64,000 bases of DNA from Sinorhizobium medicae. GTDB lineage: Bacteria > Pseudomonadota > Alphaproteobacteria > Rhizobiales > Rhizobiaceae. Positions 3,624 through 48,196 of this stretch are shown piece after piece (within the stretch, counting starts at the first letter, position 1; each line of letters begins with the position of its first letter). The stretch lies in the NCBI RefSeq assembly GCF_007827695.1, contig NZ_VITA01000003.1, positions 372,001 to 436,000 of the forward strand, written 5' to 3'. Both the position numbers and the translations under genes were made by a program. The notes under the pieces were generated by a model. That model saw only the letters and a list, made by a program, of their open reading frames with translations, was not told the DNA's origin and searched no databases.

Positions 3624-4771
3624 ATGCCCTGTCCGTGGCCTCGCATGATCTCGGACGCACCGTTCTGGGAGATGCTTTTGGCCAAAGTCGCGAGCAGGTC
3701 GGTTTGGGATATGATGCCCACGACCTTTTCGTCGTCGTCCAGTATGACGACGGCATGTGTCATGCCGTCCGTCAGGCGGGGGAGCAGGCTGATCGCAGGG
3801 TCGGACGGGTTGGCGGTGGCCGCCACGGCAATCGGCAGTTTGCTGCCGGGTTCCTTGCCGGCCAGCTCTCGCAGGCCGACCGTCCCTTGCAGTTTCCCGT
3901 TTTCGTCGAGCACGGGAAGTGTTCGAATATCATGCTTCAACAAGAGGTATCGTGCATGGTCCGGCGTCGTGTCGGCCGGAACGGTTACGACGTCGCGGGA
4001 CATGATGTCGGCACATGTCAGCTCTCCCCTCTGTCTGATGAGGGCCTGCAGTTCGACTTCCCTCAAGAGAGCATCGATGTCCGCGCGGCTGACGTCGAGT
4101 GTCTCGTTCAAGCGTGCTATTGCGAGATCAATGTCCTCGGAATTGAAGCCGACCCGAAGCGCAGGCGGGGGATCGGCCGTTTCATGCGTGTTCACTGGTG
4201 CAACAGCCGGTCGGTGCGGATATTGGCGCCGCGCCATCCGGTGGAATACGATGCCCAATCCCACAAGGATCAGGGAGTTGATGGCTACCGGTATGAACGG
4301 GAACCAGAAACCCGCGCGCGCGATCGCCGCTCCACCTATCACCGCTGTCAGCGCGGCGGCGCCTCCAGGGGGGTGAAGCGACCGCGTGAGCGACATGGCA
4401 AGGATCGCCAGGGCAACCGCAAGGCCGATGGCGACCATCTGGTCCTTCACGAAATAGCTCACGGTGACGCCGATCAGGGCGGAGATCGTGTTCCCGCCGA
4501 TGATCGACCAGGGCTGCGCAAGCGGACTGGCCGGAACCGCAAAGAGCAAGACCGCAGAAGCGCCGATGGGGGCAACGATCAACGGCAGCTGAGGATCGTC
4601 GCCGAAGATGAACCCGCAGACGAGACCGGTCAAACAGATGCCGATCAGCGCTCCGAGACAGCCGATAAGGCGCTCTTTCAGCGTTGCGCCCGCCAGGATC
4701 GGGGAAAACAGCTTAAACCTGGGCGAAGACCCTGGCTTCTGAACATTATCGGGTGGAGGCGGAACAATCAT
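3620..4771 (-). CDS. HPP-family membrane protein with two CBS domains
   Basis: 383 residues. The first half is a four-helix HPP-family membrane domain; the motif TRSLHPPGGAAALTA is the signature that names the family. The second half (about 240-375) is a CBS pair (CADIMSRDVVTVPADTT and HAVVILDDDEKVVGIIS), a module that binds adenine nucleotides or ions. HPP proteins are proposed anion (nitrite) or CBS-gated transporters; the substrate here is unknown. It is convergent with the TauE-like permease, tail overlapping by 4 bases. The AT-richer stretch 4772-4940 upstream probably carries its promoter. Confidence 0.88.
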   Translation of the reverse strand: MIVPPPPDNVQKPGSSPRFKLFSPILAGATLKERLIGCLGALIGICLTGLVCGFIFGDDPQLPLIVAPIGASAVLLFAVPASPLAQPWSIIGGNTISALIGVTVSYFVKDQMVAIGLAVALAILAMSLTRSLHPPGGAAALTAVIGGAAIARAGFWFPFIPVAINSLILVGLGIVFHRMARRQYPHRPAVAPVNTHETADPPPALRVGFNSEDIDLAIARLNETLDVSRADIDALLREVELQALIRQRGELTCADIMSRDVVTVPADTTPDHARYLLLKHDIRTLPVLDENGKLQGTVGLRELAGKEPGSKLPIAVAATANPSDPAISLLPRLTDGMTHAVVILDDDEKVVGIISQTDLLATLAKSISQNGASEIMRGHGQGI

Positions 4772-4940
4772 TTCGGGGGGCGTCAGATGCAGTTGCTCAT
4801 TTTTCGAAGCTTATGTGCCTATAAAAAGAGCGAAGCAATAGGCCGATCGGATTTCCGTGTCGTTCCGATCGATATTTTGGAGGCCAGAAGTTGGCACGCA
4901 AATTGCTCCTCAAAGGCGAAACAGTTGACACGGGTGCAGC

Positions 4941-5234
4941 TTGGACGTCTTCGACATCTCCTCCGCTCTGATCTGGCTCGCTCTTGGATTGAGCGGCCCC
5001 GCGTTTCTCACGGCTTTTGCCGATCAGCCACGTGGCTGGAAATCCGCCGCCGAAACGACTGTCGGGACCAGTGTTTTCGTCGCAGCATTGGGCCTATGTC
5101 TTTCTGCCGGAGCCTTTGTCGCGACCGCGGTCGCTGCTCCCGTAGCACTCGCCGTCGCCACAATGTTTCGACGAAACTGCCAACGGCTGCCGATGTTGGC
5201 GGTCTCGATTCTCTGCCTGGGTATCTATCTCTAA
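4941..5234 (+). CDS. Small hydrophobic protein, function unknown
   Basis: 97 residues with at least two predicted membrane helices (about 7-25 and 42-72) and a basic tail (MFRRNC). The frame begins with TTG and has no convincing ribosome site, so the start is uncertain. Composition is like that of its neighbours. I do not recognise a family. It lies divergent from the HPP-CBS gene across 170 bases, consistent with either a real small membrane protein or a chance frame. Confidence 0.4.
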   Translation: MDVFDISSALIWLALGLSGPAFLTAFADQPRGWKSAAETTVGTSVFVAALGLCLSAGAFVATAVAAPVALAVATMFRRNCQRLPMLAVSILCLGIYL

Positions 5235-5264
5235 AGCCCCATATAGCCGCCGATTGCAGGCGCT

Positions 5265-5537
5265 TCAGTCAGGCGGATGCCGAGTCGCCTCGTCGCCGGG
5301 TGCCGACGGTTGAATAGTTTCAATTCGACTTGCTTCGGGCTGGCCGTCGGGCTCGATCGGCTCGGAGAGCGTCCCGATCGGCTTCGCCGCCAAAGCTTTC
5401 AGATCTTCTGCGAGCCCGGCAAGCTGCGCGGCAAAGTCCAGAAGGTCCGAAGCGGCGCACTGCGCCGCGGTTTGCAGGAGGTCCGGGGCCGTTGCTGCAT
5501 CGTCGGCGCTAACGTTTTCGCGGTCGCTCATATCCAT
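5265..5537 (-). CDS. Small acidic hypothetical protein
   Basis: 90 residues, Ala/Asp/Glu/Pro rich, no transmembrane segment. The helix-prone middle (residues 20-50, with AAQLAGLAEDLKALAA) could form a short coiled coil; the tail looks disordered. A second ATG two codons in (MDMS) makes the exact start ambiguous. I do not recognise a family. It stands alone between the small membrane protein and the tandem repeat at 5675. Confidence 0.45.
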   Translation of the reverse strand: MDMSDRENVSADDAATAPDLLQTAAQCAASDLLDFAAQLAGLAEDLKALAAKPIGTLSEPIEPDGQPEASRIETIQPSAPGDEATRHPPD

Positions 5538-5674
5538 TTCTCATTGCTGGAGTCGCAACTAAGATAGACCCGCTCCGCCGTGGTGAAAATTGGGACAAAA
5601 GGCCGATGTCCGCACCTCGGCGGGAAGCGGAGGACCGTCGGCCGTCTCGCTCGGATCGGCGGCTGACAGCCATC

Positions 5675-5728
5675 AAACCACGAGCGCCCAGTAAACCACG
5701 GGCGCCCAGTAAACCACGGGCGCTCAGT
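5675..5728. repeat. Three tandem 18-bp repeats
   Basis: Three head-to-tail units of the form AAACCACGRGCGCCCAGT at 5675-5692, 5693-5710 and 5711-5728, differing by one base each. They sit about 30 bases beyond the 3' end of the PBP2-like gene. Read on the minus strand they would encode Leu-Leu-Gly-Ala-Arg-Gly repeats, but no credible gene contains them. Probably slippage-generated. Confidence 0.9.
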
Positions 5729-5760
5729 GCCGGGCCACTCACCAATCTGGCTTAATCCGT

Positions 5761-7494
5761 TTATCTGGGCCGGAGCAGCCAGGTTCGTGCGGCTGCCGTC
5801 CCTCGCGAACCGGGTTCTTCGGTCGCGGCGGGAACCGCTTGGACAGTGCCCGCGGGCGGCGGAAAGGTGGGCGCAACGAGCATTGGGAGGATGCGCTGGA
5901 ATACGGCGCCGCCGAACGGCACCGCATTCCAGCCCGAGGTTCGGTTGCCATATGTCTCGGGCAGTCCGCGGGGCTCGTCCAAAAGGGTGAGCAGCAGGTA
6001 TCTGGGATTGTCCGCCGGTACGATACCCATGAAAGATGTGACGTTGAGCTCCCTGGAATAGCGGCCCCCGACCACTTTCTCGGCTGTGCCGGTCTTGCCG
6101 CCGATTGCGTAACCGGGAACATTGGCTCTCGTTGCAGACCCGACAGCGGTGTTGAGGCGCAAAAGATGGCGAATTGCCTCGCTGGTGTCCGACGACACGA
6201 GATCCTCCGCTATCGTCCGTTCGGAAACGGGGCTGTCCTTTATGAAAGTGGGCCTGATCAGCCTGCCGCCGTTCGCCAGAGCGGCCACCGCAGTGCTGGC
6301 CTGCAGCGGCGTAACGGCAATCCCATGGCCGAATGAGACCGTTGCCGTCGCCACCTCACTCCACGAGGATGGCAGCAGCGGTGCGGCGCTCTCCGGCAGT
6401 TCGGTTGCAAGCGGCGACAGGGCTCCGAAGCGTCCGAGGAATGTCCTCGACGCTTCCGGTCCGAGGGCCAACGCCATTTTCGCCATGACGATATTGGAGG
6501 AGTGCACGAATGCTTCGGGAATGGTCAGCGGTCTGTACTTGCCGCGATAATCATGGATGCGCATCCTCCCGAAATTCAAAGGCTTGCTCGCATCCACCAC
6601 CGATTCGAGATTGAACCGGCCCGATTCCAGAGCCATTGCCGTCGTCAGAGCCTTGAAGGTCGATCCCATCTCGAAGACGCCAGCAGTAACGCGGTTTATT
6701 CGGTCTGGCTTGAATGCATTCTCCGGATTGTTCGGATCGAAGTCCGGATAGGAGGCGAGCGCGAGAACTTCGCCATTGGTGACGTCGAGCAGGAGCCCGG
6801 CACCCGCGGCAGCCCCGAATTTCGTGATGGCCTTGCCGAGCTCCTGCTCCAGTGCGTATTGGACGCGCAGGTCGATCGACAGCTCGACCGGTTGGAGTTC
6901 ACGTCCCTTGAGTTCCATCCCGGCACCGCGCAGGTCCGCGAGCCAGTTTGCATCAATCCACTTTTCAATACCCGCAATGCCCCGATTGTCGATGTCCACG
7001 GCGCCAAGGATATGGGCAGCCAATGAGCCGTTCGGATAGAGCCGTCGGTTTTCGGGGCGAAAGCCGATCGCTGCCAATCCTGAATCGATGACAGCCTGCT
7101 GCTTGTCCGGAGTTATCTGCCGCTTGATCCAGGTGAAGGCGTCTTTGCTATGCAGGCGCGAATGGAGATCCCGGGCATCGAGTTCGGGGAAAAGCCCGGT
7201 GAGTTTTTCAACCGCCTCGTCCAGGTCTGGGATCGACCGCGGCTCGATAAAGAGCGACGCGATGGGTATATCGGTCGCGAGCAGCTCCCCGTTTCTATCG
7301 ACGATTGCGGGCCGGCCACCTGGAGCCCGGTCATAGGTGATGCTGATCCCGAGGCTCGCTTCCTGCTCCATTCCGAGCTGGACGAGTCGCAGAAAAATAC
7401 CGCCGAATATGGCAGCAAACGCCGCCATGATGCAGATGATGCGCACCCGTCTGCTGTGTGCCCTGCTCCGAAGGGTGAAGGCGTGCTTCCTCAT
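5761..7494 (-). CDS. FtsI/PBP2-type penicillin-binding transpeptidase
   Basis: Class B penicillin-binding protein, a peptidoglycan DD-transpeptidase anchored by one N-terminal helix (residues about 18-40) with a periplasmic catalytic domain. 577 residues. The dimerization domain begins APGGRPAIVDRNGELLATD, typical of FtsI. Catalytic motifs are complete: SxxK in EMGSTFKALT (about residue 283), SxN in HSSNIVM, and KTG in GGKTGTAEK. A good GAGG ribosome site precedes the ATG. The start lies 33 bases after the stop of the PBP1A-like gene, so the two form an operon. Chromosomal ftsI sits in the dcw cluster, which is absent here, so this is an accessory paralogue. Confidence 0.93.
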   Translation of the reverse strand: MRKHAFTLRSRAHSRRVRIICIMAAFAAIFGGIFLRLVQLGMEQEASLGISITYDRAPGGRPAIVDRNGELLATDIPIASLFIEPRSIPDLDEAVEKLTGLFPELDARDLHSRLHSKDAFTWIKRQITPDKQQAVIDSGLAAIGFRPENRRLYPNGSLAAHILGAVDIDNRGIAGIEKWIDANWLADLRGAGMELKGRELQPVELSIDLRVQYALEQELGKAITKFGAAAGAGLLLDVTNGEVLALASYPDFDPNNPENAFKPDRINRVTAGVFEMGSTFKALTTAMALESGRFNLESVVDASKPLNFGRMRIHDYRGKYRPLTIPEAFVHSSNIVMAKMALALGPEASRTFLGRFGALSPLATELPESAAPLLPSSWSEVATATVSFGHGIAVTPLQASTAVAALANGGRLIRPTFIKDSPVSERTIAEDLVSSDTSEAIRHLLRLNTAVGSATRANVPGYAIGGKTGTAEKVVGGRYSRELNVTSFMGIVPADNPRYLLLTLLDEPRGLPETYGNRTSGWNAVPFGGAVFQRILPMLVAPTFPPPAGTVQAVPAATEEPGSRGTAAARTWLLRPR

Positions 7495-38909: not shown

Positions 38910-39327
38910 AGTTCGTTCGACACCGTAAATCGAAACACAGCCTGCGCAGGCTGGGGAGAACGGCCGACAAATTGCCGGCCATTTGGCGGATCAAACCTGG
39001 TTCAAAAAGGCCGAACCCGCCTGATCCATTTGAGGGCCGGACGGGACATGTAAACGATCATTCTTCGACAATTGAAGGCCGTGAAGGTAATCGGCCGCGG
39101 ATTGCGCCTTGGCGGCCGCTGTGATGATCGCGCGCTTGTCGTTCTTCAAAACGGCCAACCAGCTCGCCACATACGCTGCGGTATTGTCACGCGGATCATG
39201 GTCCACTCCGAGATCAGCGCAAAGAAATGATGCCGCAAGCTCGGCGACCAGTTCGTCGGCTGCGTAGGATGCGCTGCCGAATCTTCCGGTGAGATCGCGG
39301 TCGAGTCGGTGCTTTGCACCCGTCCAA

Positions 39328-39333
39328 TGGCCA
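39328..39333. repeat. Target-site duplication TGGCCA (left copy)
   Basis: Second copy at 45043-45048. One copy belongs to the ardC codons for Gly-His; both touch the element ends. The sequence is its own reverse complement. Confidence 0.75.
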
Positions 39334-39449
39334 TTATGCCGATATCGGCATAAGTCGCATTATGCCGTACGCCGGATTATGCCGCATGGCCAAGTTTGGC
39401 GGCTGTTGTGCCTGCTTCTGGCCATGTGGCAGTTCGGCATAATCAGAGC
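39334..39449 (+). repeat. RIT left terminal inverted repeat region
   Basis: Contains the palindrome TTATGCCGATATCGGCATAA (39334-39353), then ATTATGCCG (39359-39367), ATTATGCCGCATGGCC (39376-39391) and CGGCATAATCAGAGC (39435-39449). The last two are exactly matched, inverted and with the same 74-base span, at the right end. The outermost ~25 bases (palindrome) have no counterpart on the right. Confidence 0.85.
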
Positions 39450-39490
39450 TTTTCGAGGAAGGCGAGCAGTTCGTAGAGAGGGGGTTCTGA

Positions 39491-41236
39491 TCATGCTGCT
39501 TGTGTTGGTCCTGCCCTCAAGGTTGTACGCGCGCGTTGCAAAGCTGATATGGCAGCTTCGACTGTGGCCGCGTAACGTACCAGTGGCCTCTTTATTTCAT
39601 GCTTCAGCAAGACACGCCGGATATCGCGAGTGGTTCCGGTGAGCCACAGGGTCACACCATGCTTGTGAGCCTTGTGCGCTAGGCCCTCGATCATGTTGGC
39701 GCCGGTCGAGTCCAGAAACGGCACCGCGGAGAAATCGACGACCAGTGCCTTTTGGTTGTCCTGAATGCGGTCGAGAACAGAGCCGATTGATGCTGTCGCG
39801 CCGAAGAAGAGAGCACCGGTTATCCGGTAGACGACAACATCGGGGTTCGCAGCAGCAGATTCATTGTAGGCTTTGCGTGGATGGGCGTCATCGGCTTCGT
39901 CGCGCGCCACGAACGGTACATGGGTGGTGACTGCGGTTGTTCGGCTCATACGGTGAATAAAGAGCACTGAGCCAAGAGCGAACCCAACGACAATCGCCTC
40001 ACTCAAATCCCGGAATACTGTCAGGAAGAATGTCGCCCCCAATACGGTTGCTTCGCCCCAACCCGAGCGCAGCAAGATCGCGATTGCAGGCTTTTCGATC
40101 ATGTTCCAGGCAACGACTGCCAGCACGCCCGCCAGAGCTGCTAATGGGATATATGCAGCGAGCGGTGCCGCGATCACCATGAAAATAAGAAGAAATGCTG
40201 AATGCAACATTCCGGCGACTGGCCCGTGCGCTCCAGCGCGTATGTTGGTAGCGGTACGGGCAATGGTGCCCGTCACACAGAAGCCGCCGAACAGCGAGGC
40301 ACCGATATTTGCCGCACCCTGAGCAACAAGCTCGCAGTTGGAACGGTGTCGTCGACCAGTCATGCCATCCGCAACTACGGCTGATAGCAGCGATTCTATG
40401 GACCCTAGCAAGGTGAAGGACAGTGCGGCTGGCAGAACCGCTACAATCCTGTCCATCGAGAGATCAGGCAGTTGCGGGAAAGGCAGTGCAGAGGGGATTC
40501 CGCCAAACTTGGTTCCAATCGTCTCGACAGGCAGGGCAAGCAATGCTGTTGCGGTTGAGCTCAGGGCAACAGCGATCAGCATCCCCGGCCAGCGCGGTCG
40601 CCAGCGGCGTAATCCGAGAATGACCGCAATGGTAGTGATAGAGATCCCGACCGCGCCAGACGCAACGCTGTCCTTTGCTCCCCACAGCACTGGGAGCTTC
40701 TGAAGGAGCTCTCCTGGTTCATGGTCCAAAGTCAGACCGAAAAGGTCCTTGATCTGGCTGGCAAAGATGATCACGGCAATCCCTGCCGTAAAGCCCACCG
40801 TTACCGGGAAGGGAATGAACTTTATGAATGTTCCGAACCGCAGGAGGCCAACTGCGGTGAGCATCAAACCTGAAAGGAAGGTTGCCAGGATTAAGCCATC
40901 CATGCCGTGTTGAGCGACTGTTGCGGCGACCAACACGATAAAGGCCCCGGCCGGGCCGCCTATCTGAAATCGCGATCCTCCGAACAATGAGACGAAGAAC
41001 CCACCGACGATTGCCGAATATAGCCCCTGCGCGGGCGTTGCGCCCGAGGCAATGGCGATGGCCATCGACAGTGGCAACGCTACGATGGCGACGGTAAGTC
41101 CCGCTATTGCATCGGCGCGCAAGTGGGGCAATCCGTAGCCTTCGCGCAGGATTGTAAGAAATTTTGGAGTGTAGAGTTCAGCAAAGCCCGGCGCTTCGCT
41201 CTGTCTGTCTGTCGATACTTTCACTTGTTGCCGCAC
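39491..41236 (-). CDS. SulP-family anion transporter with STAS domain
   Basis: 581 residues: 10-12 membrane helices carrying the SulP signature (LPLSMAIAIASGATPAQGLY) and a C-terminal STAS domain (about 440-560; ALVVDFSAVPFLDSTGANMI). SulP proteins import sulfate, bicarbonate or other anions; substrate undefined here. Starts with GTG at 41236; GTG at 41221 is possible. Located 60 bases downstream of an HTH gene on the same strand, a likely operon, and wholly inside the RIT inverted repeats. Confidence 0.92.
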   Translation of the reverse strand: MRQQVKVSTDRQSEAPGFAELYTPKFLTILREGYGLPHLRADAIAGLTVAIVALPLSMAIAIASGATPAQGLYSAIVGGFFVSLFGGSRFQIGGPAGAFIVLVAATVAQHGMDGLILATFLSGLMLTAVGLLRFGTFIKFIPFPVTVGFTAGIAVIIFASQIKDLFGLTLDHEPGELLQKLPVLWGAKDSVASGAVGISITTIAVILGLRRWRPRWPGMLIAVALSSTATALLALPVETIGTKFGGIPSALPFPQLPDLSMDRIVAVLPAALSFTLLGSIESLLSAVVADGMTGRRHRSNCELVAQGAANIGASLFGGFCVTGTIARTATNIRAGAHGPVAGMLHSAFLLIFMVIAAPLAAYIPLAALAGVLAVVAWNMIEKPAIAILLRSGWGEATVLGATFFLTVFRDLSEAIVVGFALGSVLFIHRMSRTTAVTTHVPFVARDEADDAHPRKAYNESAAANPDVVVYRITGALFFGATASIGSVLDRIQDNQKALVVDFSAVPFLDSTGANMIEGLAHKAHKHGVTLWLTGTTRDIRRVLLKHEIKRPLVRYAATVEAAISALQRARTTLRAGPTQAA

Positions 41237-41296
41237 CTTGAGTAGGAAGCGGCGGGATCGTCGGCTTATCGTCGGCGGTCGCCGTCGCGGATTGAT

Positions 41297-41557
41297 TCAG
41301 GATGTCGTGGATGAGGACTTCAATCGAACGCCGCGACCTCCCGCCGGACTGGCAGCCCCCTCACCGATCAGTTCGATGCCCGCGAGTTCAAGTGCCGTGA
41401 TTACCCTGGTCAAGCTCTCTACCACGCCCCGAACATTGCCACTGCTCGATTCCATCCGTTGGATCGTCGGAATGGAAAGTCCGGACAGCTCGGCCAGGGT
41501 CTTTTGGTCGATGCCGAGAAGCGCACGTGCGGCACGCATTTGGGCGGCGGTAATCAT
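41297..41557 (-). CDS. HTH regulator adjoining the SulP gene
   Basis: 86 residues, beginning MITAAQMRAARALLGIDQKT then LAELSGLSIPTIQRMESSSG; a single XRE-like HTH with the C-terminal region ALELAGIELIGEG seen in short alphaproteobacterial regulators. The gene at 58219 is of the same type. Probably autoregulates and controls the downstream SulP gene. Divergent from ritA across 257 bases. Confidence 0.85.
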   Translation of the reverse strand: MITAAQMRAARALLGIDQKTLAELSGLSIPTIQRMESSSGNVRGVVESLTRVITALELAGIELIGEGAASPAGGRGVRLKSSSTTS

Positions 41558-41814
41558 CGATCTATCCTACGCGTGATAAATCCATATTTGAAATAGCAAT
41601 AATGATCTGTCAAACATCAACTTCCTCAACATCGAAATTCTCGACAGGCACCAAAAGCTATCGCGCACTGCGCGCGCCCATTGAAGTGTAAGGTTCGATG
41701 ACCAAATAGGTGGTCTTTGGCTAGTTTGTACGGTCACCAAGGCGGGAGCCGACCAGTAGTTACATAGAGACGGAAACAATGAAGCTTCGTGCTCCGACAA
41801 CAAGGAGCACTGAA

Positions 41815-43035
41815 ATGAGAATATTCGACAAAGCCACCTGCCTTGACCCGTACTTAGCGTCATTCGAGCAAAGTTTTTCCGCGAGGAAATATAAGCCCGC
41901 GACGCTGGAGAATTATCGCTATCACCTCCGGTGCTTTGGCCGATTGCTGGATGTGGAAGGCATCGCGCCTTCGGCACTGACGGCAGATATTGCCGTCGAA
42001 TTAGGACGGCGATTGCCAACGACACCCAAAGCCCAGATCAAGGTTGCCAATCTTGCCGGGCTGTTCGTCGAGCATCTGATTGAAATAGGCGTGGCGACAC
42101 GCCCGTCGCTCACTGCTGCTCAAGCCGAACGCCAAGAGCTCCTGGGCGACCTCGAAACCTACCTCGAGCGGCAACGCGGCCTCAGCCCACGGTCCGTCAA
42201 ACATGTGCTGGGATTCGCGGCTCGCTTCCTCGCTCACCGCTTCGGGGACCAGATGCTCGATCTCGCGATCTTGAACGCTCGCGATGTCGTGGCGTTCATG
42301 GAGCATGTTATCGGACGCAAGACGCCCTACCGAGACAAGACGTTATCCTCGCACTTGCGCAGCTTCTTCCAGTATCTGTTCGCTCAGGGGCTCATCACCA
42401 CGAACCTCTCACTCTGCGTACCTAGGGTACACAAGCCCTGGGGGGCGAGGCTTCCGCGATATCTGTCGCCCGATGAAGTGGAGGCTGTGCTGGCATCTGT
42501 CGCAACCAATCCGCGGCGAGGCGCCCGCGACTACGCCATGTTGCTGTTGATGGCGAGGCTCGGCATGCGCGCGCCCGAGGTCATGGCGGTCCAACTCGAT
42601 GACATCGACTGGCGGGCCGGCGAGCTTCTGGTTCGCGGAAAGGGAAAACGTCATGACCGGCTGCCAATCCCGTCGGACGTCGGCGAAGCCATCAGCAGGT
42701 ATTTGCGCGAGGAGCGGACTTCAACGACAACCCGCACGCTGTTCGTGAGCCATCGGGCGCCGAACCGTCCGTTCAAGGATAGCCAAATCATCAACTCGAT
42801 TTTGCGGGAAGCGTTCGCGGCGACCGGAGTGAAGCCGCCGACACCCTATGTCGGATCGCATGTTCTGCGTCACAGCCTTGCGACAAATCTGGTTCGGTCC
42901 GGTGCTTCGCTGGAGGAGATCGGGGATCTGCTGCGGCATCGATCGCGTGCAACAACGATGATCTATGCGAAACTCGATACGGATGGATTGCGCTCCATCG
43001 CCCAGCCTTGGCCGATCGCGGAGGTAGCACGATGA
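41815..43035 (+). CDS. RIT tyrosine recombinase A
   Basis: 406 residues, phage-integrase/XerD family, first of the trio. SAM-like N-terminal domain, then catalytic residues: Arg in ARLGMRAPEV, HVLRHS (His-x-x-Arg box), the second His region LRHRSRATT, and nucleophile Tyr in TMIYAKLDTDG. The ATG at 41815 follows AAGGAG; an in-frame ATG at 41779 is not supported. The stop overlaps the next ATG by 4 bases. Confidence 0.92.
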   Translation: MRIFDKATCLDPYLASFEQSFSARKYKPATLENYRYHLRCFGRLLDVEGIAPSALTADIAVELGRRLPTTPKAQIKVANLAGLFVEHLIEIGVATRPSLTAAQAERQELLGDLETYLERQRGLSPRSVKHVLGFAARFLAHRFGDQMLDLAILNARDVVAFMEHVIGRKTPYRDKTLSSHLRSFFQYLFAQGLITTNLSLCVPRVHKPWGARLPRYLSPDEVEAVLASVATNPRRGARDYAMLLLMARLGMRAPEVMAVQLDDIDWRAGELLVRGKGKRHDRLPIPSDVGEAISRYLREERTSTTTRTLFVSHRAPNRPFKDSQIINSILREAFAATGVKPPTPYVGSHVLRHSLATNLVRSGASLEEIGDLLRHRSRATTMIYAKLDTDGLRSIAQPWPIAEVAR

Positions 43036-43970
43036 GCCTCCTTGCCGAACAGGACCGCTACCTGAGCATCAGAAGACGGCTGGGCGCCGATCTGAGTACG
43101 GACGAACGCATTTTGCGTCGCTTCGCCGCCTTTGTCGACAACGATGGCGCGGAGTACATCGACACCAGATTGATCATGCGTTGGCTGGAGAGCCTCCCCT
43201 CCGCCAGTGCCGGAACACGGGGCGCTCGCTTCCGGGTGGCTCGTCAATTTGCCGCCTGGCTGCACGGGACGGATCCGCGGCACGAGGTGCCGCCCCAAGG
43301 GTTGGTGCCTGGTCATGTTCAACGGGTACATCCACACATTTACAGCGACGCCGAAATCATTGCGATTATCGAGCATGCCCGATCGTTGCCATCGGTTTAC
43401 GGCATGCGCGGCTTGACCTGCTCGACGCTCTTCGGCCTGATCGCCGTGACGGGACTTCGGATCAATGAAGCCCTGCGTCTCGACCAGACCGATCTTGATA
43501 TTGAAACCGGCGTCCTTCGTGTTCGCTTCGGAAAACTCGGCAAGGAACGACTATTGCCGCTGGATCCAACTGTAGCGCAAAAACTGGAAAGCTATGGGCG
43601 TGAGCGGGACCGGCTATTGGGGCGCAGATCGGAGGCCCTATTTGTCGCGTGTAAGGGCCATCGTCTCGGCGATTGCGGCGCACGCTACAACTTCGCGCTG
43701 GTCTGCCAGCAGATCGGTTTGAGGCCCAGGCAGGATTACAAGCGCCATGGACGCGGGCCGCGCATCCACGACCTTCGCCACACCTTCGCGGTTCGGACGA
43801 TGCTAAACTGGTATCGATCCGGCCACGATGTGGGCCGCGAGATGATCAAACTCACGACCTGGCTCGGTCACGCGAGCCCGACCGATACCTATTGGTACCT
43901 GGAAGCGGTCCCGGAATTGCTGGAATTAGCTGCCGCTCGGATAACGAGCGCGGCGGAGGGGGAGCAATGA
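43032..43970 (+). CDS. RIT tyrosine recombinase B
   Basis: 312 residues, middle member. Integrase catalytic domain with Arg in AVTGLRINEALRLD, HDLRHTFAVRT, His of WLGHASPTDTYWYLEA and Tyr nearby. Overlaps both neighbours as ATGA, so the three are translated as a coupled unit, as is typical of RIT elements. Confidence 0.92.
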   Translation: MSLLAEQDRYLSIRRRLGADLSTDERILRRFAAFVDNDGAEYIDTRLIMRWLESLPSASAGTRGARFRVARQFAAWLHGTDPRHEVPPQGLVPGHVQRVHPHIYSDAEIIAIIEHARSLPSVYGMRGLTCSTLFGLIAVTGLRINEALRLDQTDLDIETGVLRVRFGKLGKERLLPLDPTVAQKLESYGRERDRLLGRRSEALFVACKGHRLGDCGARYNFALVCQQIGLRPRQDYKRHGRGPRIHDLRHTFAVRTMLNWYRSGHDVGREMIKLTTWLGHASPTDTYWYLEAVPELLELAAARITSAAEGEQ

Positions 43971-44959
43971 AGGCGACCAACTTCCCTGCGCTAATCCAGC
44001 GCTTCTTCACTGACCGGCTCTGCACACAAATGGAGGCAAGCCAGCACACCATCGCCGGCTACCGGGACACATTCCGGTTGTTGATCCGTTACGCTGGTTC
44101 ACGGTGTGGGAAGCCGCCCACGAAGCTTACGATCGAAGATCTCGACGCCGATCTTGTCGCCGACTTCCTGAGCCACGTTGAAACGACGCGTGGTAACACG
44201 GCTCGAACTCGCAATGCGCGCCTTGCTGCGATCCGTTCATTCTTCCGATACGTCGCGATGACCGATCCGACCTGGCTTCTCCATTGCCAGCGCATTCTCT
44301 CGATGCCAAGCAAGCGATACGTGAAGCGTAGCGTGATGTTCCTCGACGCACAGGAGATAGCCGCGCTGCTGGTCGCGCCGGATCGAACAACGTGGGTGGG
44401 ACGGCGTGATCACGCCCTGCTCTTGCTTGCGCTTCAGACCGGATTGCGGGCATCCGAGCTGATCAGTCTGCGCTGCAAGGACGTGGTCCTTGGCGCAGGC
44501 GCCCACATCCGTTGCGTCGGCAAGGGGCGAAAAGAACGCAGCACTCCACTTCGCCGCGATACGGCAAAACTGATCCAGGGCTGGATTGGGGAGCGACGTG
44601 ACAGCGATAGTCCCCTGTTCCCCTCGATCCGGGGCGAGCGGCTCAGTCGTGATGCGCTTGAACATCTGGTGCGCAAGCACTGCCTCACGGCATCCCGAAC
44701 GTGTCCAAGCCTCGCAAGCAAACGTGTTACGCCGCATACTTTGCGGCACAGCACGGCGATGGAACTGCTTCATCACGGAGTAGACCAATCCGTGATCGCG
44801 CTCTGGCTTGGGCATGAATCCGTGGAGACGACCCAGATCTATATCCACGCCGACATGCGGCTCAAGGAAAAGGCGCTCTCTCAGGTCGCCAGACCAGAAG
44901 CCCATCCTGGGCGGTATCGTCCCAACGACGAACTGCTTGTGTTCCTTGAATCGCTCTGA
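43967..44959 (+). CDS. RIT tyrosine recombinase C
   Basis: 330 residues, third member. Catalytic pattern: Arg in LQTGLRASELISLR, HTLRHSTAMELL, LGHESVETTQIYIHAD with the nucleophile Tyr. Starts in the stop of the B gene. Its stop lies inside the right inverted repeat, so it closes the element. Confidence 0.93.
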   Translation: MKATNFPALIQRFFTDRLCTQMEASQHTIAGYRDTFRLLIRYAGSRCGKPPTKLTIEDLDADLVADFLSHVETTRGNTARTRNARLAAIRSFFRYVAMTDPTWLLHCQRILSMPSKRYVKRSVMFLDAQEIAALLVAPDRTTWVGRRDHALLLLALQTGLRASELISLRCKDVVLGAGAHIRCVGKGRKERSTPLRRDTAKLIQGWIGERRDSDSPLFPSIRGERLSRDALEHLVRKHCLTASRTCPSLASKRVTPHTLRHSTAMELLHHGVDQSVIALWLGHESVETTQIYIHADMRLKEKALSQVARPEAHPGRYRPNDELLVFLESL

Positions 44960-45042
44960 TTATGCCGAACCGCCGCATGGCCGAATGGAGGCGCCGCCGC
45001 CTTGATAATCGGCCATGCGGCATAATCCGGCTTACGGCATAA
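44953..45042 (-). repeat. RIT right terminal inverted repeat region
   Basis: GCTCTGATTATGCCG (44953-44967), GGCCATGCGGCATAAT (45011-45026), and terminal CGGCATAA (45035-45042). The stop codon of ritC (44957-44959) lies inside the first block, so the repeat overlaps the gene end. Confidence 0.85.
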
Positions 45043-45301
45043 TGGCCAATTTCGTGGAGCAAGGTCGAATATAGATGGACCTGGCTGTCGAACCGGTGCC
45101 GGTCCGGCATCAGAATGTCGTCGCAGTTCGGCCGGTAGCATGCTTTGGTGCCGCCGTAGGTGACACTGGCGCCGGTGTTTTTGACGAATGTTTCAACGGT
45201 CTCAATGTGCGGGACCGGAGCCCTCGGTAACTCATCGGCCGGGCTGAAAAACCGGGCAGGCAGGTTCTCGATCTGCTCGAGTAGGGTAGGCTGGCGGCGC
45301 C

Positions 45302-47208
45302 TCAATGAGGACGCGGCTCAGCCCCCCTCCGAACCGGACTTGCACCTTTCAGCGCATCCGGCTCTCCACGACTACGTGTTCCGTCACGTCGTTGGTCAAC
45401 TTGGCCACCAGCATGGACGGAGCGATGACAGGGCTGGCAAAGCACAATGCGCTTGCGTAATCGTGCCGCCGGCATGTACCGGGCAAGCCCTGCTTTCTCC
45501 ATTTCCGCGATCTTTCTGACATGATGGATTTCACATGGAAGATCTGTTCGACCGCATCTGGCGCATTTCTGCGCATTGAGGCGTTCGACCATTTCTGTCC
45601 TGCTGAACACAAACTTTGATGATTGTGGGCGATCAATGTCGCCCCATTTTCGCGGTTCGCACTTCAGGTCCTTCAGTTGCCAGATTTTGATCTCTCGGGG
45701 TTCCTCTCCGACTTGGAAGCGAACGAAGAAGTCTTGCCCTCGGCGCATCTTGGAGAAGATTTCCCTCGCAGACGTTTTGTGCTTTGCCGCGATGGTTTTG
45801 ACGCAGCTCATCAGGGCAAAGTACCCGCCCTTATTGAGTTTGCGTTTCACATCATCGGCAAGCGCATAGTAATTTGCGAAGCCTCTCCATTCAGCGTTGT
45901 AGGCCATGACAATTTCGACGTCACTCGCCAAAGTCAAAGCAGGACGGTGGCGAGGACGAAAGGCATCGTAATCGCCCCATCCTTTGCCATTGACAAACCG
46001 GACCACCTTTTCCCTTGGGACATTCAGCTTCAAACGATCTGCCAACCCTCGCCGCAGTGCGGGACGACCATAAAAGGTCGCCTTGTGCGGATTGCGGTTG
46101 GTCGATGTCCTGACATCGTATCCAAGGAAACGCGCTCCGTCCGAAGCCTTGCGGATGCCGCTTTTCTCATCCGACACGCTTAGTTTCAGGTTTTTGGAGA
46201 GGAATGTCCTCACCTCCTCCATGATCTGCCGCGCGTCATCTTTGCTACCAATTATGCCGATCAAGAAGTCATCGGCATAACGGCAGTAGCGGAGCCGCTT
46301 GTATTTCGGATCGAATGCGTCGGTGGCGGGCACGGTCAACCGTTCCGCCTTCAGCCGACTGATCTCCTCCAGTTTGGATTTGATCTCTGCATCATCCTCG
46401 CCTCGATCAAGACGAAGCTGATCCACTTGCTTACGAAGCCGCGTCAGACGATTCATGATCCGTCGGCCTTCGACCGATGGAACACGTTTATCGCCCCTAT
46501 GGTAGGCTGTAATCTTTGTTTCCATGTACTCGTCGAGTTCATGGAGGTAGATGTTTGCCAGTATAGGGGAGACGATACCGCCCTGTGGGGTGCCGCTGTA
46601 GGTTCGGTGATAAACCCAATCCTCCAGATAACCAGCTTTCAACATTCCACGGATCAAGCCGATAAAACGGCTGTCGTGGATACGTTTTTCAAGCAAGCCA
46701 ATGAGGATGTCGTGATCAATGTTGTCGAAGTATCCGACCACATCGACATCGACCAGCCATTTCACCCCTGTCCAAACTGCTCGGATGTTTTCCAGCGCAG
46801 TATGACAGGATCGATTCGGTCTAAACCCATGAGAGTGCTGCGAGAACAGCGGCTCATAGATTTGCTCCAGAAGAATTCGAACGACCTCCTGGACCAAGCG
46901 GTCTTCCGTCGTCGGCACGCCAAGCGGCCTTTTCTTGCCGTTGGCTTTGGGAATGTACACCCGACGTACTGGTTGCGGACGATAGGTCCCATTCGCCAGC
47001 CGTTCGATGATCGAACGTATCTTTTCTGACGTGGGGTCTGTCCGTCAACTCCCGGTGTCATCGCACCCTTGTTCTGTGCGATTTTATGGTAGGCTCGCTC
47101 CCAAAGGAGCGGAGCCTTCATAAGGCGGTAGAGCCCATTGACCCGCCGACCCGACCTAACAATGATCGGGAGCGATCCAACAGCCCTTTTGATAGTATCT
47201 GGCAGCAT
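45302..47208 (-). pseudogene. Group II intron-encoded reverse transcriptase/maturase, frameshifted
   Basis: Starts [20 protein letters not shown] at 47208 after GAGGTG. About residue 58 (TPGVDGQT, near 47035) the frame breaks; the family continues one frame over as [20 protein letters not shown], then [22 protein letters not shown] domain with catalytic YADD ([12 protein letters not shown]), then the maturase domain and an HNH endonuclease ([25 protein letters not shown]). A one-base loss near the N-terminus disables the protein unless it is a sequence error. The frame runs through domain V to a stop at 45302, which is unusual; most such proteins end before domain V. Confidence 0.88.
45331..45364 (-). 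ncRNA. Group II intron domain V
   Basis: 34-nt hairpin starting GAGCCGGATGCGCTGAAA and ending AGTCCGGTTC on the minus strand, matching the conserved domain V helix with its tetraloop region. Domain VI follows, leading to the 3' splice site at 45281. Confidence 0.85.
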
Positions 47209-48196
47209 TAGCACACCTCTTCGTAAGGTTTTGGATCGTAGTCGCTGCCGTCCTTCCCCTGATCCGCAGAATTTTCGCTCAAGTTGCCCTGAGCTTATAT
47301 TCTCGACCATCCGATGATTTCGGCTGTCCCGGTCATTACTCCGGGCATTTGAGTACTATGACGGCTCCGTACCCATACAGGTCATCGGCAGAACCGATGC
47401 CTGCTTAGGGCATCCCGTAATTACGAAAGCGGGAGATACGATGTGGTTAGGTGCCCCGTTCGTTCACTTACCCCTCCGATGGAGGATGCGCCGAATGGGC
47501 TGGCTTTCCCGATATCGGGGTTGGAGGACCTCAACATCCTGTCCTCTGTCCATTCGGTGTGCCGTGTCAGTCGTTCTACGACACCGCTCCGGTTGTAGGC
47601 CGCTGCAAACTAGGGTTCAGGCAATACAGCTTTCACCATACACATCTTGCCCTGACCCGCCGCATCGCAAACGACTTTGATGCTTTGGGCCTTTTCCGAA
47701 CATGCTATTGTTCCCCGCTCCTTTCGGAGTCACAATCGTTGCCGATCGAGGTGAGTTCGGCAGGCATGAGCTATTCCAGCAAGCTCATTCACTCATCGTG
47801 ACACTCCCTATGCTTTCGCCGTTACGGCGCACCATTGAAGACGGTGTATCCTTTGAGATAAGGGATTGAACAATCCTCGTCGTCTTCGCGCTCCTTCGGC
47901 GTGAAGGTTCCGTACTTGACGACGAGCGTTCCTTTCTCACCCTTTCGGACTTTCGCGCCGAGATCCTGGGCCTGCCGATAGGTCATCCAGGTGTTTTCCT
48001 CGTAGCCGAAAATCTGGCTGGAGATCCACAGCATCAGGACGTTGATGCCCCGATAGGCTTCGCCGGTGGCGCGGCGCGGGGTGAGTGAGCAGCGGATGTC
48101 GTTGCGCCAGGGACGGATCCACGGTTTTGTGCCGGCTTCAAGCTGCTTTACGATGGTATCAGTGATGCGTTGGTAAGTGTCGTTGATGCTCTGCAT

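Follow-up and report, generated by a model that had tools for sequence, protein, structure and literature searches.

RIT elements of the Cupriavidus CH34 and pHG1 type are presented, in those parts of the two source papers that describe them, in terms of size, about 3.5 kb, or of content, three coding regions with inverted repeats of 28-34 bp (PMC3414803, PMC2864759), and one of these descriptions speaks of 'a 28-9 bp inverted repeat and overlapping palindromic sequence' (PMC3414803). For the recombinases of the family, the relevant passage of PMC8138268 gives two core-binding domains for RitA and an extra C-terminal helix for RitC, and the RIT passage of PMC10214605 states that transposition has not been reproduced experimentally.

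Here we describe a related locus in a 64,000-nt stretch of Sinorhizobium medicae DNA (GCF_007827695.1, NZ_VITA01000003.1, positions 372,001 to 436,000, forward strand), referred to as a whole as the window. Like the CH34 and pHG1 elements, as far as those descriptions go, it has inverted ends, an intragenic position and three recombinase genes that overlap and follow one another in the same order; unlike them, it is 5,687 bp long and contains two cargo genes inside its ends rather than recombinases only.

Results

The unit consists of the recombinase trio, an HTH-SulP operon and two inverted ends of about 100 bp, and occupies positions 39358-45044, inside ardC (Table 1). A 34-bp end sequence, with one position left open, occurs only twice in the 64 kb, at 39358-39391 (+) and 45011-45044 (-); the two ends differ at one position, and 100 shuffles gave 0 matches. 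Over 100 bp TIR_L and TIR_R align with 80% identity (E 8e-21). The preliminary description had proposed that inverted repeats bound the unit and that the left one lies beyond the HTH-SulP operon, and both points stand: a nearer left repeat beside ritA is absent, as the interval 39442-44960 has no exact TTATGCCG arm. Its placing of the ends at 39334 and 45042 needs correction, as the inverted ends proper are at 39358 and 45044, and 39334 is the first base of a palindrome, P, which together with 4 bp lies outside the left end; the TGGCCA that it noted on both flanks is present (39328-39333 and 45043-45048). Because a 4-bp repeat (GCCA on the + strand) is found at both sides, the net gain relative to an empty allele comes, by coordinate arithmetic, to 5,715 bp.

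Table 1. Features of the element and its surroundings, in window coordinates.
Feature	Position	Strand	Basis or remark
ardC 3' part, GHWTGAKHRLDRD... to stop	38991..39333	-	open frame
TGGCCA core between P and ardC 3'	39328..39333	.	N4 = TGGC on - strand, then CA
P, perfect 20-bp palindrome	39334..39353	.	two outward recombinase arms around GATATC; outside left end
GTCGCA, second 6-bp core, P to left end	39354..39359	.	sequence, orientation table
TIR_L	39358..39457	+	arms at 39360, 39377, plus 39435 inverted
SulP-family anion transporter with STAS domain, 581 aa	39491..41236	-	PF00916 (Sulfate_transp) 9e-77, PF01740 3e-16
XRE-like HTH protein, 86 aa	41297..41557	-	PF01381 (HTH_3) 8e-6
Short inverted repeat in ritA leader, GCTCC-loop-GGAGC	41789..41810	+	clade alignment; cargo slot ends before it
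ritA, tyrosine recombinase, 406 aa	41815..43035	+	35-37% to two pHG1 RitA copies
ritB, tyrosine recombinase, 312 aa	43032..43970	+	36-43% to two pHG1 RitB copies
ritC, tyrosine recombinase, 330 aa	43967..44959	+	54% to pHG1 RitC
TIR_R	44945..45044	-	arms at 45035, 45018, plus 44960 inverted
ardC middle part, HEIG just ahead of junction	45045..45280	-	99.2% over 236 bp to L142
Group II intron, same ardC, outside the element	45281..47832	-	RT/maturase; alignment gap in L142

The three overlapping genes previously read as tyrosine recombinases lie in the order A-B-C, both overlaps are ATGA (4-8 bp being expected in RIT elements), and the Phage_integrase profile (Pfam) matches all three products. 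A catalytic R..HxxR..Y pattern can be recognised in each, with HVLRH, HDLRH and HTLRH respectively and a C-terminal Tyr, the Arg box having been assigned by eye. Pfam marks one SAM-like region in RitA (112-192). Among the pHG1 RIT proteins the best match of RitA, RitB and RitC was in each case its own counterpart, which points to three distinct RIT families; we took the pHG1 genes compared to be the published RITs because the paper names pHG1, the two sets having no tags in common. The trio gave a single match in its genome, and a second copy there was therefore rejected; a class-wide search with RitC gave 5 of 385 genomes at E <= 1e-100, this genome included, the four others at 54-60%.

The target could be defined from natural empty alleles. 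These, L142 (in S. medicae ml29) and L143, read GAAATTGGC and GAAATGTCG, respectively, up to the insertion point and CATTGG after it, which places the insertion immediately upstream of the second His codon of HExxH. The flank with the ardC 3' part is 97.3% identical to L142 over 3,363 bp; the window's group II intron is missing from the corresponding place in L142, which has a different one elsewhere in ardC. The earlier proposal that removal of the element restores the ardC frame was borne out, since GHWTGAKHRLDRD... stays open past the left end to the stop and an allele uninterrupted here reads HEIGHWTGAKHRLDRD. Thirteen S. medicae plasmids match the adjoining ardC piece at >=99% identity; eight of them are among the 10 records covering >=80% of the element query and five are not, and in the one of these five that was examined ardC was empty. 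A literature search on ardC insertion gave no lead.

Copies with the same ends and different flanks, which the preliminary description had suggested looking for, were found on two other plasmids. Over the 5,687 bp the element is 99.89% identical in L040 and 99.82% in L032, and the ardC pieces beside it (5'/3') are only 73.8%/74.4% and 72.4%/75.6% identical to the window's, so that the whole unit, SulP included, occupies three ardC alleles. In L032 its orientation in ardC is opposite to the window's. The laboratory strain S. medicae WSM419 also has the element. Rhizobium anhuiense T24 likewise has one element on two plasmids (L033 and L035), in opposite orientation relative to ardC, with identical trio proteins and identical cargo (100% over 2,857 bp). 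Comparison of the three alleles shows that the HTH-SulP operon passed between ardC alleles in one block with the recombinase genes and both TIRs, identity dropping from 99.8-99.9% in the whole-unit copies to 72-76% in the adjoining ardC pieces. A SulP gene in ardC without the trio, a test named beforehand, was not seen among the loci examined, and an ardC-resident SulP operon independent of the trio was rejected on that basis.

RITs of several phyla have exact copies of the palindrome P. Such copies occur in 50 of the 141 sequences compared (the window plus 140 loci, with duplicates counted) and in 8 of 297 genomes of the family, this one included; a reversed-pattern control gave 0. It was present at all 39 classified 3' junctions of the interrupted gene and at none of the 49 classified 5' junctions, whichever way the element points, in a test in which 32 of 120 junctions were unclassified (12 of these with P), the motifs were chosen after viewing the flanks, and the rows are phylogenetically non-independent; the unclassified junctions may therefore hide more exceptions to this side rule. 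At least one 3' junction outside the classification lacks P: the ardC junction at L034, which has a shifted frame and fell into the class 'other', and for which a deletion between GGCATAA repeats would account. Within ardC the two orientations were seen 10 and 14 times (duplicate row L007r removed).

One explanation for this one-sidedness is that P is a scar or a separate mini-element already in the target, which acts as a docking site and lies outside any circle. It would account for P being on the target's 3' side regardless of the element's direction, and L137 has one P with no RIT end adjoining; yet P is missing at the insertion point in both empty alleles, exact copies occur in RITs of distant hosts, and P co-varies with the RIT's own TIR arms (ATGCC/ATGCC 43, ATTCC/ATTCC 3, one unscored). 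Moreover, the 4-bp sequences that flank P on either side are identical in the window and L032. We consider a pre-existing P improbable. These two copies, which are oppositely oriented, would derive from one and the same circle joint, TIR_L-CGAC-P-TGGC-TIR_R, with two core sites sharing P. The sole case informative about the origin of the 4 bp is L040. Its ardC pieces match L143 at 94% and 90% identity, its 5' junction shows the GTCG of L143, and TGGC follows beyond P. Since t5 = o holds for 17 of the 41 distinct rows, strict duplication is not a general rule, nor is strict replacement.

Cargo was assessed in trios with both ends mapped (67 of 106 rows, or 66 after removal of the duplicate L007r), a sample tilted to DNA neighbours of the window, with 20 out of 307 plasmid records included, and to the 80 best RitC matches among those listed. 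The 39 rows outside the counts comprise contig ends, truncated genes and unrecognised ends, and include L004, L037, L044 and L054, in which RitC is 87-94% identical to the window's. Cargo was present in 25 of the 66 trios. In the window's clade it was present in 14 of 14 mapped members, in eight types that include transport, chromate-resistance and redox genes, always between TIR_L and the ritA leader; trio DNA is 78-95% identical among these relatives and cargoes of different types have no alignable DNA, except 57 bp between L039 and L043. This space is a slot whose gene content differs from relative to relative. The cargo-bearing class suggested in the preliminary description is upheld by these counts; its restriction to anion transport genes is not, as the SulP operon is one of several types. 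A trio alone with close repeats, which it had regarded as telling against such a class, occurs in more distant RITs (left end <=193 bp from ritA in 38 of 66) and in 0 of 14 members of the window's clade. Since cargo-carrying and cargo-less trios are intermingled in the tree, we regard 'recombinases only, about 3.5 kb' as typical of RITs and not as defining. Cargo on the ritC side was rejected: in all 66 trios the distance between the ritC stop and the right end is 83-115 bp, the mapping having extended 200 bp beyond ritC; L044, L110 and L131 lie outside this judgement.

The same data bear on whether an ordinary RIT (trio and ends, about 3.4 kb) was hit once by an HTH-SulP segment, with no cargo class involved. 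In keeping with this, 41 of the 66 mapped RITs lack cargo, a SulP-HTH pair is also annotated without a RIT at L051, amid ABC and TRAP transporter genes (the one such locus examined), L061 holds only a transposase-like gene, and L042 and L043 include nested IS genes. Against it stand the uniform presence of cargo in one slot of the window's clade, the whole unit in three ardC alleles and the pair of plasmids in a single strain that carry a different cargo type, and we give this idea little credence.

It is very improbable that homologous recombination between ardC copies, or plasmid exchange, spread the unit in place of its own recombinases: ardC is common on Sinorhizobium plasmids (82 matching records for the ardC piece, 58 of them Sinorhizobium), and L040 shares the window's group II intron (99.6% over 988 bp) and so may share other plasmid parts, but identity falls from 99.8% to 72-76% at the element ends, L032 is reversed, the same codon is hit in many ardC genes, and other RITs lie in tyrosine-recombinase genes.

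Discussion

We conclude, with a probability of roughly four in five, that the unit is a cargo-bearing RIT transposon that moves via a circle joined through P, a reading drawn from sequence comparison. RitA, RitB and RitC would form a circle with the 20-bp P as the link between its two ends. P would then be common to two core sites, both of the form GGCATAA-NNNN-CA-TTATGCC with a 6-bp crossover region. Recombination of one or other core with an NNNN-CAY target in ardC would lead to integration in one or other orientation. In either case P would end up 3' of the target, the target's own 4 bp would stay at the 5' junction, and the circle's 4 bp would come to lie at the 3' junction, on the far side of P. 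For the host, the outcome would be the gain of a predicted SulP transporter and a small HTH protein, and the loss of ArdC.

In the RIT descriptions of PMC3414803 and PMC2864759, neither the side rule for P nor an ardC target is mentioned in the parts concerned. No exact P was found beside the pHG1 RITs in the 49 kb searched, and a P-like palindrome lies beside one copy only, in an annotated IS66 transposase gene. Several other systems have features in common with the element, as judged from the portions of the literature that describe them. SEs also combine several recombinase genes, cargo and target specificity, and their circle carries a short host sequence that is left at one junction (6 bp), a possible likeness for which L040 is here the single informative case; however, they use IntA, Tfp, IntB and Srap, in contrast to the RIT-type trio, long inverted ends, P and both orientations seen here. 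The Tn554 family shares multiple recombinases, a specific target, a 6-bp footprint, imperfect terminal inverted repeats and cargo, but has a TnpA/TnpB/TnpC set, and P is absent from its description in the corresponding part of PMC10214605. The constant partner protein of these two systems (TnpC, or Srap and Tfp) is unmatched here: by gene layout only the trio is constant, with <=193 bp left of ritA in 38 of 66 trios and <=115 bp right of ritC in 66 of 66. GInts are likewise islands with three integrase-like genes and cargo (PMC10214605), but are described as having a four-gene set, GinA-D, and as large, with a median of 34.9 kb (PMC10214605).

A more general suggestion, which we offer tentatively and hold to be doubtful, is that alphaproteobacterial RITs are a cassette-swapping class. 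The P-based dual core would admit one circle in either orientation at the conserved catalytic-His codon, and the recombinases would exchange cargo modules, together with the interior of TIR_L, at the outer left arms, so that the target is fixed and the load changes.

RITs span many phyla and are described, in the accounts cited here, as three genes between inverted repeats; in the present case a clade appears to bring cargo to one exact plasmid codon. Annotation of the trio only would miss this cargo and its boundaries. As the comparison predicts how the circle joint should read and which two core sites and which target would recombine, the question of how three recombinases would move a RIT becomes testable.

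Element structure and relation to known RITs

The trio of the 5,687-bp element gave its best matches on plasmid pHG1, which carries published Cupriavidus-type RITs (recombinase-in-trio elements), to its own counterparts, with identities of 35-37% for RitA, 36-43% for RitB and 54% for RitC. RITs are abundant on pHG1 according to PMC3414803, which puts their length at about 3.5 kb and refers to an inverted repeat with an overlapping palindrome; in PMC10214605 a RIT consists of three coding regions flanked by 34-bp repeats, and transposition is stated to have been reproduced for none of them. In contrast, the element of 5,687 bp has genes for a SulP transporter and an HTH protein inside its ends. 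Since its trio matches the pHG1 RITs while those described there consist of three genes and repeats, the element is classed as a new, cargo-bearing RIT variant relative to these two descriptions.

Features of the element (window positions)
Feature	Position	Strand	Remarks
Recombinase trio (three overlapping tyrosine recombinase genes)	41815-44959	+	each pair overlaps as ATGA
Cargo HTH gene		opposite to trio	86 aa; Pfam
Cargo SulP transporter gene		opposite to trio	581 aa, with STAS domain; Pfam
Inverted ends, ~100 bp each	39358-39457 and 44945-45044		80% identical to each other (alignment)

A search of the window found the outer 34 bp of the ends twice, at both element ends (0 in 100 shuffles), and the exact end arm was not found in the interior between them. 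An inverted repeat, GCTCC-loop-GGAGC (41789-41810), lies directly 5' of ritA and covers the likely ribosome-binding site. This repeat was present in the 12 cargo-bearing members aligned and in most of the 10 cargo-less ones; at loci L056 and L066 its arms were altered in the alignment, with pairing kept.

Insertion into ardC and movement of the whole unit

Comparison with alleles lacking it identifies the element as an insertion into ardC. The flanks in the window are 97-99% identical to those of S. medicae ml29 pSymA (L142), whose copy of this ardC lacks the element and reads GAAATTGGC/CATTGG; the window's element sits exactly at the slash. The motif split is HEIG/HWTG, the ArdC zinc site. 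The site occupied in S. meliloti LMB1 pC (L032) likewise has an empty counterpart, L143, reading GAAATGTCG/CATTGG, with flanks 88-94% identical. Among 13 plasmid records at least 99% identical to the adjacent ardC piece, 8 belonged to the 10 records in which 80% or more of the element query was covered, and 5 did not; L142 is one of these 5, and the one whose sequence was read. The window's ardC is also split, upstream of the element, by a group II intron (reverse transcriptase/maturase; 45281-47832). L142 lacks this intron there and carries a different one at another point of its ardC, likewise of group II.

As judged from its near-identical copies, the element has moved together with its cargo. 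L032 and S. meliloti ml59 pMl3 (L040) carry the whole 5,687-bp unit at 99.82% and 99.89% identity to the window's copy, while their adjacent ardC pieces match the window's at 72.4% (5') and 75.6% (3') in L032 and at 73.8% and 74.4% in L040. Further upstream in L032 an ardC stretch is 83% identical to the window's, and in L040 a group II intron adjoining the ardC piece is 99.6% identical over 988 bp. The element of L032 has the orientation opposite to the window's, and Rhizobium anhuiense T24 carries one element on two plasmids (L033 and L035; trio proteins identical, cargo 100% identical) in opposite orientations relative to ardC. Near-identical units in divergent ardC genes and in opposite orientations, including those of strain T24, exclude simple inheritance, and the same copies make plain homologous exchange of the element unlikely.

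The palindrome and the target sites

Directly outside one end lies P, a perfect 20-bp palindrome; each half is identical to that end's own arm. Exact P was present in 50 of 141 sequences examined (duplicates included). Its hosts range from Alphaproteobacteria as far as Bacteroidota (finished genome L078), and metagenome bins of Actinomycetota (L083) and Chloroflexota (L095) have it too. It occurred in 8/297 family genomes, that of the window included (reversed-pattern control, 0/297), and eight of its nine places there were beside RIT-end sequence; the ninth, L137 (1501-1520), has exact P with no RIT end within 140 bases either side. Where the arm reads ATTCC instead of ATGCC, so does P (concordant in 43 cases with ATGCC and 3 with ATTCC, 1 unscored). 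The 49 kb of pHG1 searched held no exact P and one P-like palindrome, beside a RIT copy and inside an annotated IS66 transposase gene.

Many of the more distant RITs interrupt tyrosine recombinase genes at an LR/H box; for some others the flanks, judged by eye, suggest a transposase gene, IS66-like or of another kind, as the target. ArdC and tyrosine recombinase insertions lie directly 5' of a CAY codon; the histidines at these points are metal-binding or catalytic. Junctions were classed according to which part of the target gene they adjoin, 5' or 3', using ArdC HExx/H or tyrosine recombinase LR/H, motifs picked after the flanks had been viewed. P was found at 39/39 classified 3' junctions and 0/49 classified 5' junctions, the rows being related rather than independent, so that the Fisher test exaggerates the strength of the association; 32 of 120 junctions were unclassified, 12 of these with P. 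Element orientation in ardC was 10 versus 14. Five elements between two 5' target parts had no P (L062, L074, L089, L098 and L122) and two between two 3' parts had two Ps (L046 and L092), an arrangement that recombination between two insertions, or their inversion, might have produced; L073 has two Ps and unclassified flanks. One exception, L034, has a 3' junction without P. It was scored as 'other' and could be explained by a deletion between GGCATAA repeats.

A proposed insertion mechanism

Reading along the target gene, the ardC 5' part is followed by 4 bp (t5), the element with an end on either side, 4 bp (m), P, 4 bp (o) and the ardC 3' part. The t5, m and o sequences are TGGC, CGAC and TGGC in the window and GTCG, GCCA and GTCG in L032; closed as circles, both read alike, TIR_L-CGAC-P-TGGC-TIR_R (TIR, terminal inverted repeat). 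A tyrosine recombinase core site usually consists of a 6-bp spacer flanked by inverted arms, and here each 4 bp with the end's CA would form such a spacer. P would then be the inner half of two cores, and the choice of core would set the resulting orientation. The ardC pieces of L040 match L143 at 94% and 90%. The 4 bp of L143, GTCG, occupy the 5' junction of L040, and TGGC lies on the far side of P; this one informative case suggests that the target's own 4 bp stay at the 5' junction and the circle's 4 bp land beyond P. L040 agrees in this with SE, another multi-recombinase element, for which PMC10214605 describes 6 bp of target kept at one junction and the circle's 6 bp at the other. Because t5 equals o in only 17/41 distinct rows, exact 4-bp matching is not required. 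L040 also has a 2,558-bp insert (4155-6712), annotated with an IS91 transposase and a tyrosine recombinase, exactly between P and the GTCG core; S. medicae plasmids H1 and H4-H8 gave a match in two pieces with a similar overall length.

A cargo slot between the left end and ritA

Both ends were mapped in 66 distinct trios (67 of 106 rows, one duplicate). In 38 of them the left end lay within 193 bp of ritA; the distance was 260-399 bp in 3 (L116, L123 and L090) and 992-4,456 bp in 25. When the trio proteins were joined for a tree, a well-supported branch (41 rows) had all 25 cargo-bearing trios on the same side. The distribution of cargo called for 9 changes, 8 or more of them on branches with good support. 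Within the window's clade all 14 trios had cargo. Trio DNA there is 78-95% identical, and between cargoes of different type no DNA was alignable except 57 bp between L039 and L043.

Cargo types, from annotations and Pfam
Cargo	Loci
Window's clade	
SulP-HTH	window, L032, L040
Alkene reductase, TetR, small protein, methyladenine glycosylase	L033, L036, L042; L035 via identity to L033
Alpha/beta hydrolase	L034
Chromate ChrA + ChrB/sulfurtransferase protein	L041, L052
Carbon-nitrogen hydrolase	L038
NlpC/P60	L039
177-aa protein, no Pfam match	L053
Several genes with nested IS110	L043
Outside clade	
MerR + pyridine-nucleotide (disulphide) oxidoreductase	L086, L087
Histidine kinase + response regulator	L050
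Class V aminotransferase	L081
Proteins without Pfam match	L047, L055, L058 and others
Transposase-like gene only	L061

The oxidoreductase of L086/L087 is presumably mercuric-reductase-like, and the L061 cargo may be a nested IS, as its sole gene is transposase-like. The ChrA-ChrB-type genes of L041 and L052, in RITs of Novosphingobium and Paracoccus, share 85% DNA identity. On other alphaproteobacterial plasmids (L051, H48-H50), DNA matching SulP and HTH is about 73% identical; in L051, the only one of these read, the 10 kb inspected contained no RIT.

In the clade alignment the slot extends from the inner arm of the left end to the short inverted repeat before ritA, and the left-end interior tracks cargo type in L033/L036/L042 and in L041/L052. 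The trios of L033 and L034 are 91.6% identical and their cargo is unrelated. Those of L033 and L036 are slightly less alike, at 90.0%, yet here the cargo is 92.5% identical. Since the closer trios differ in cargo, the cargo module has probably been swapped among these relatives.
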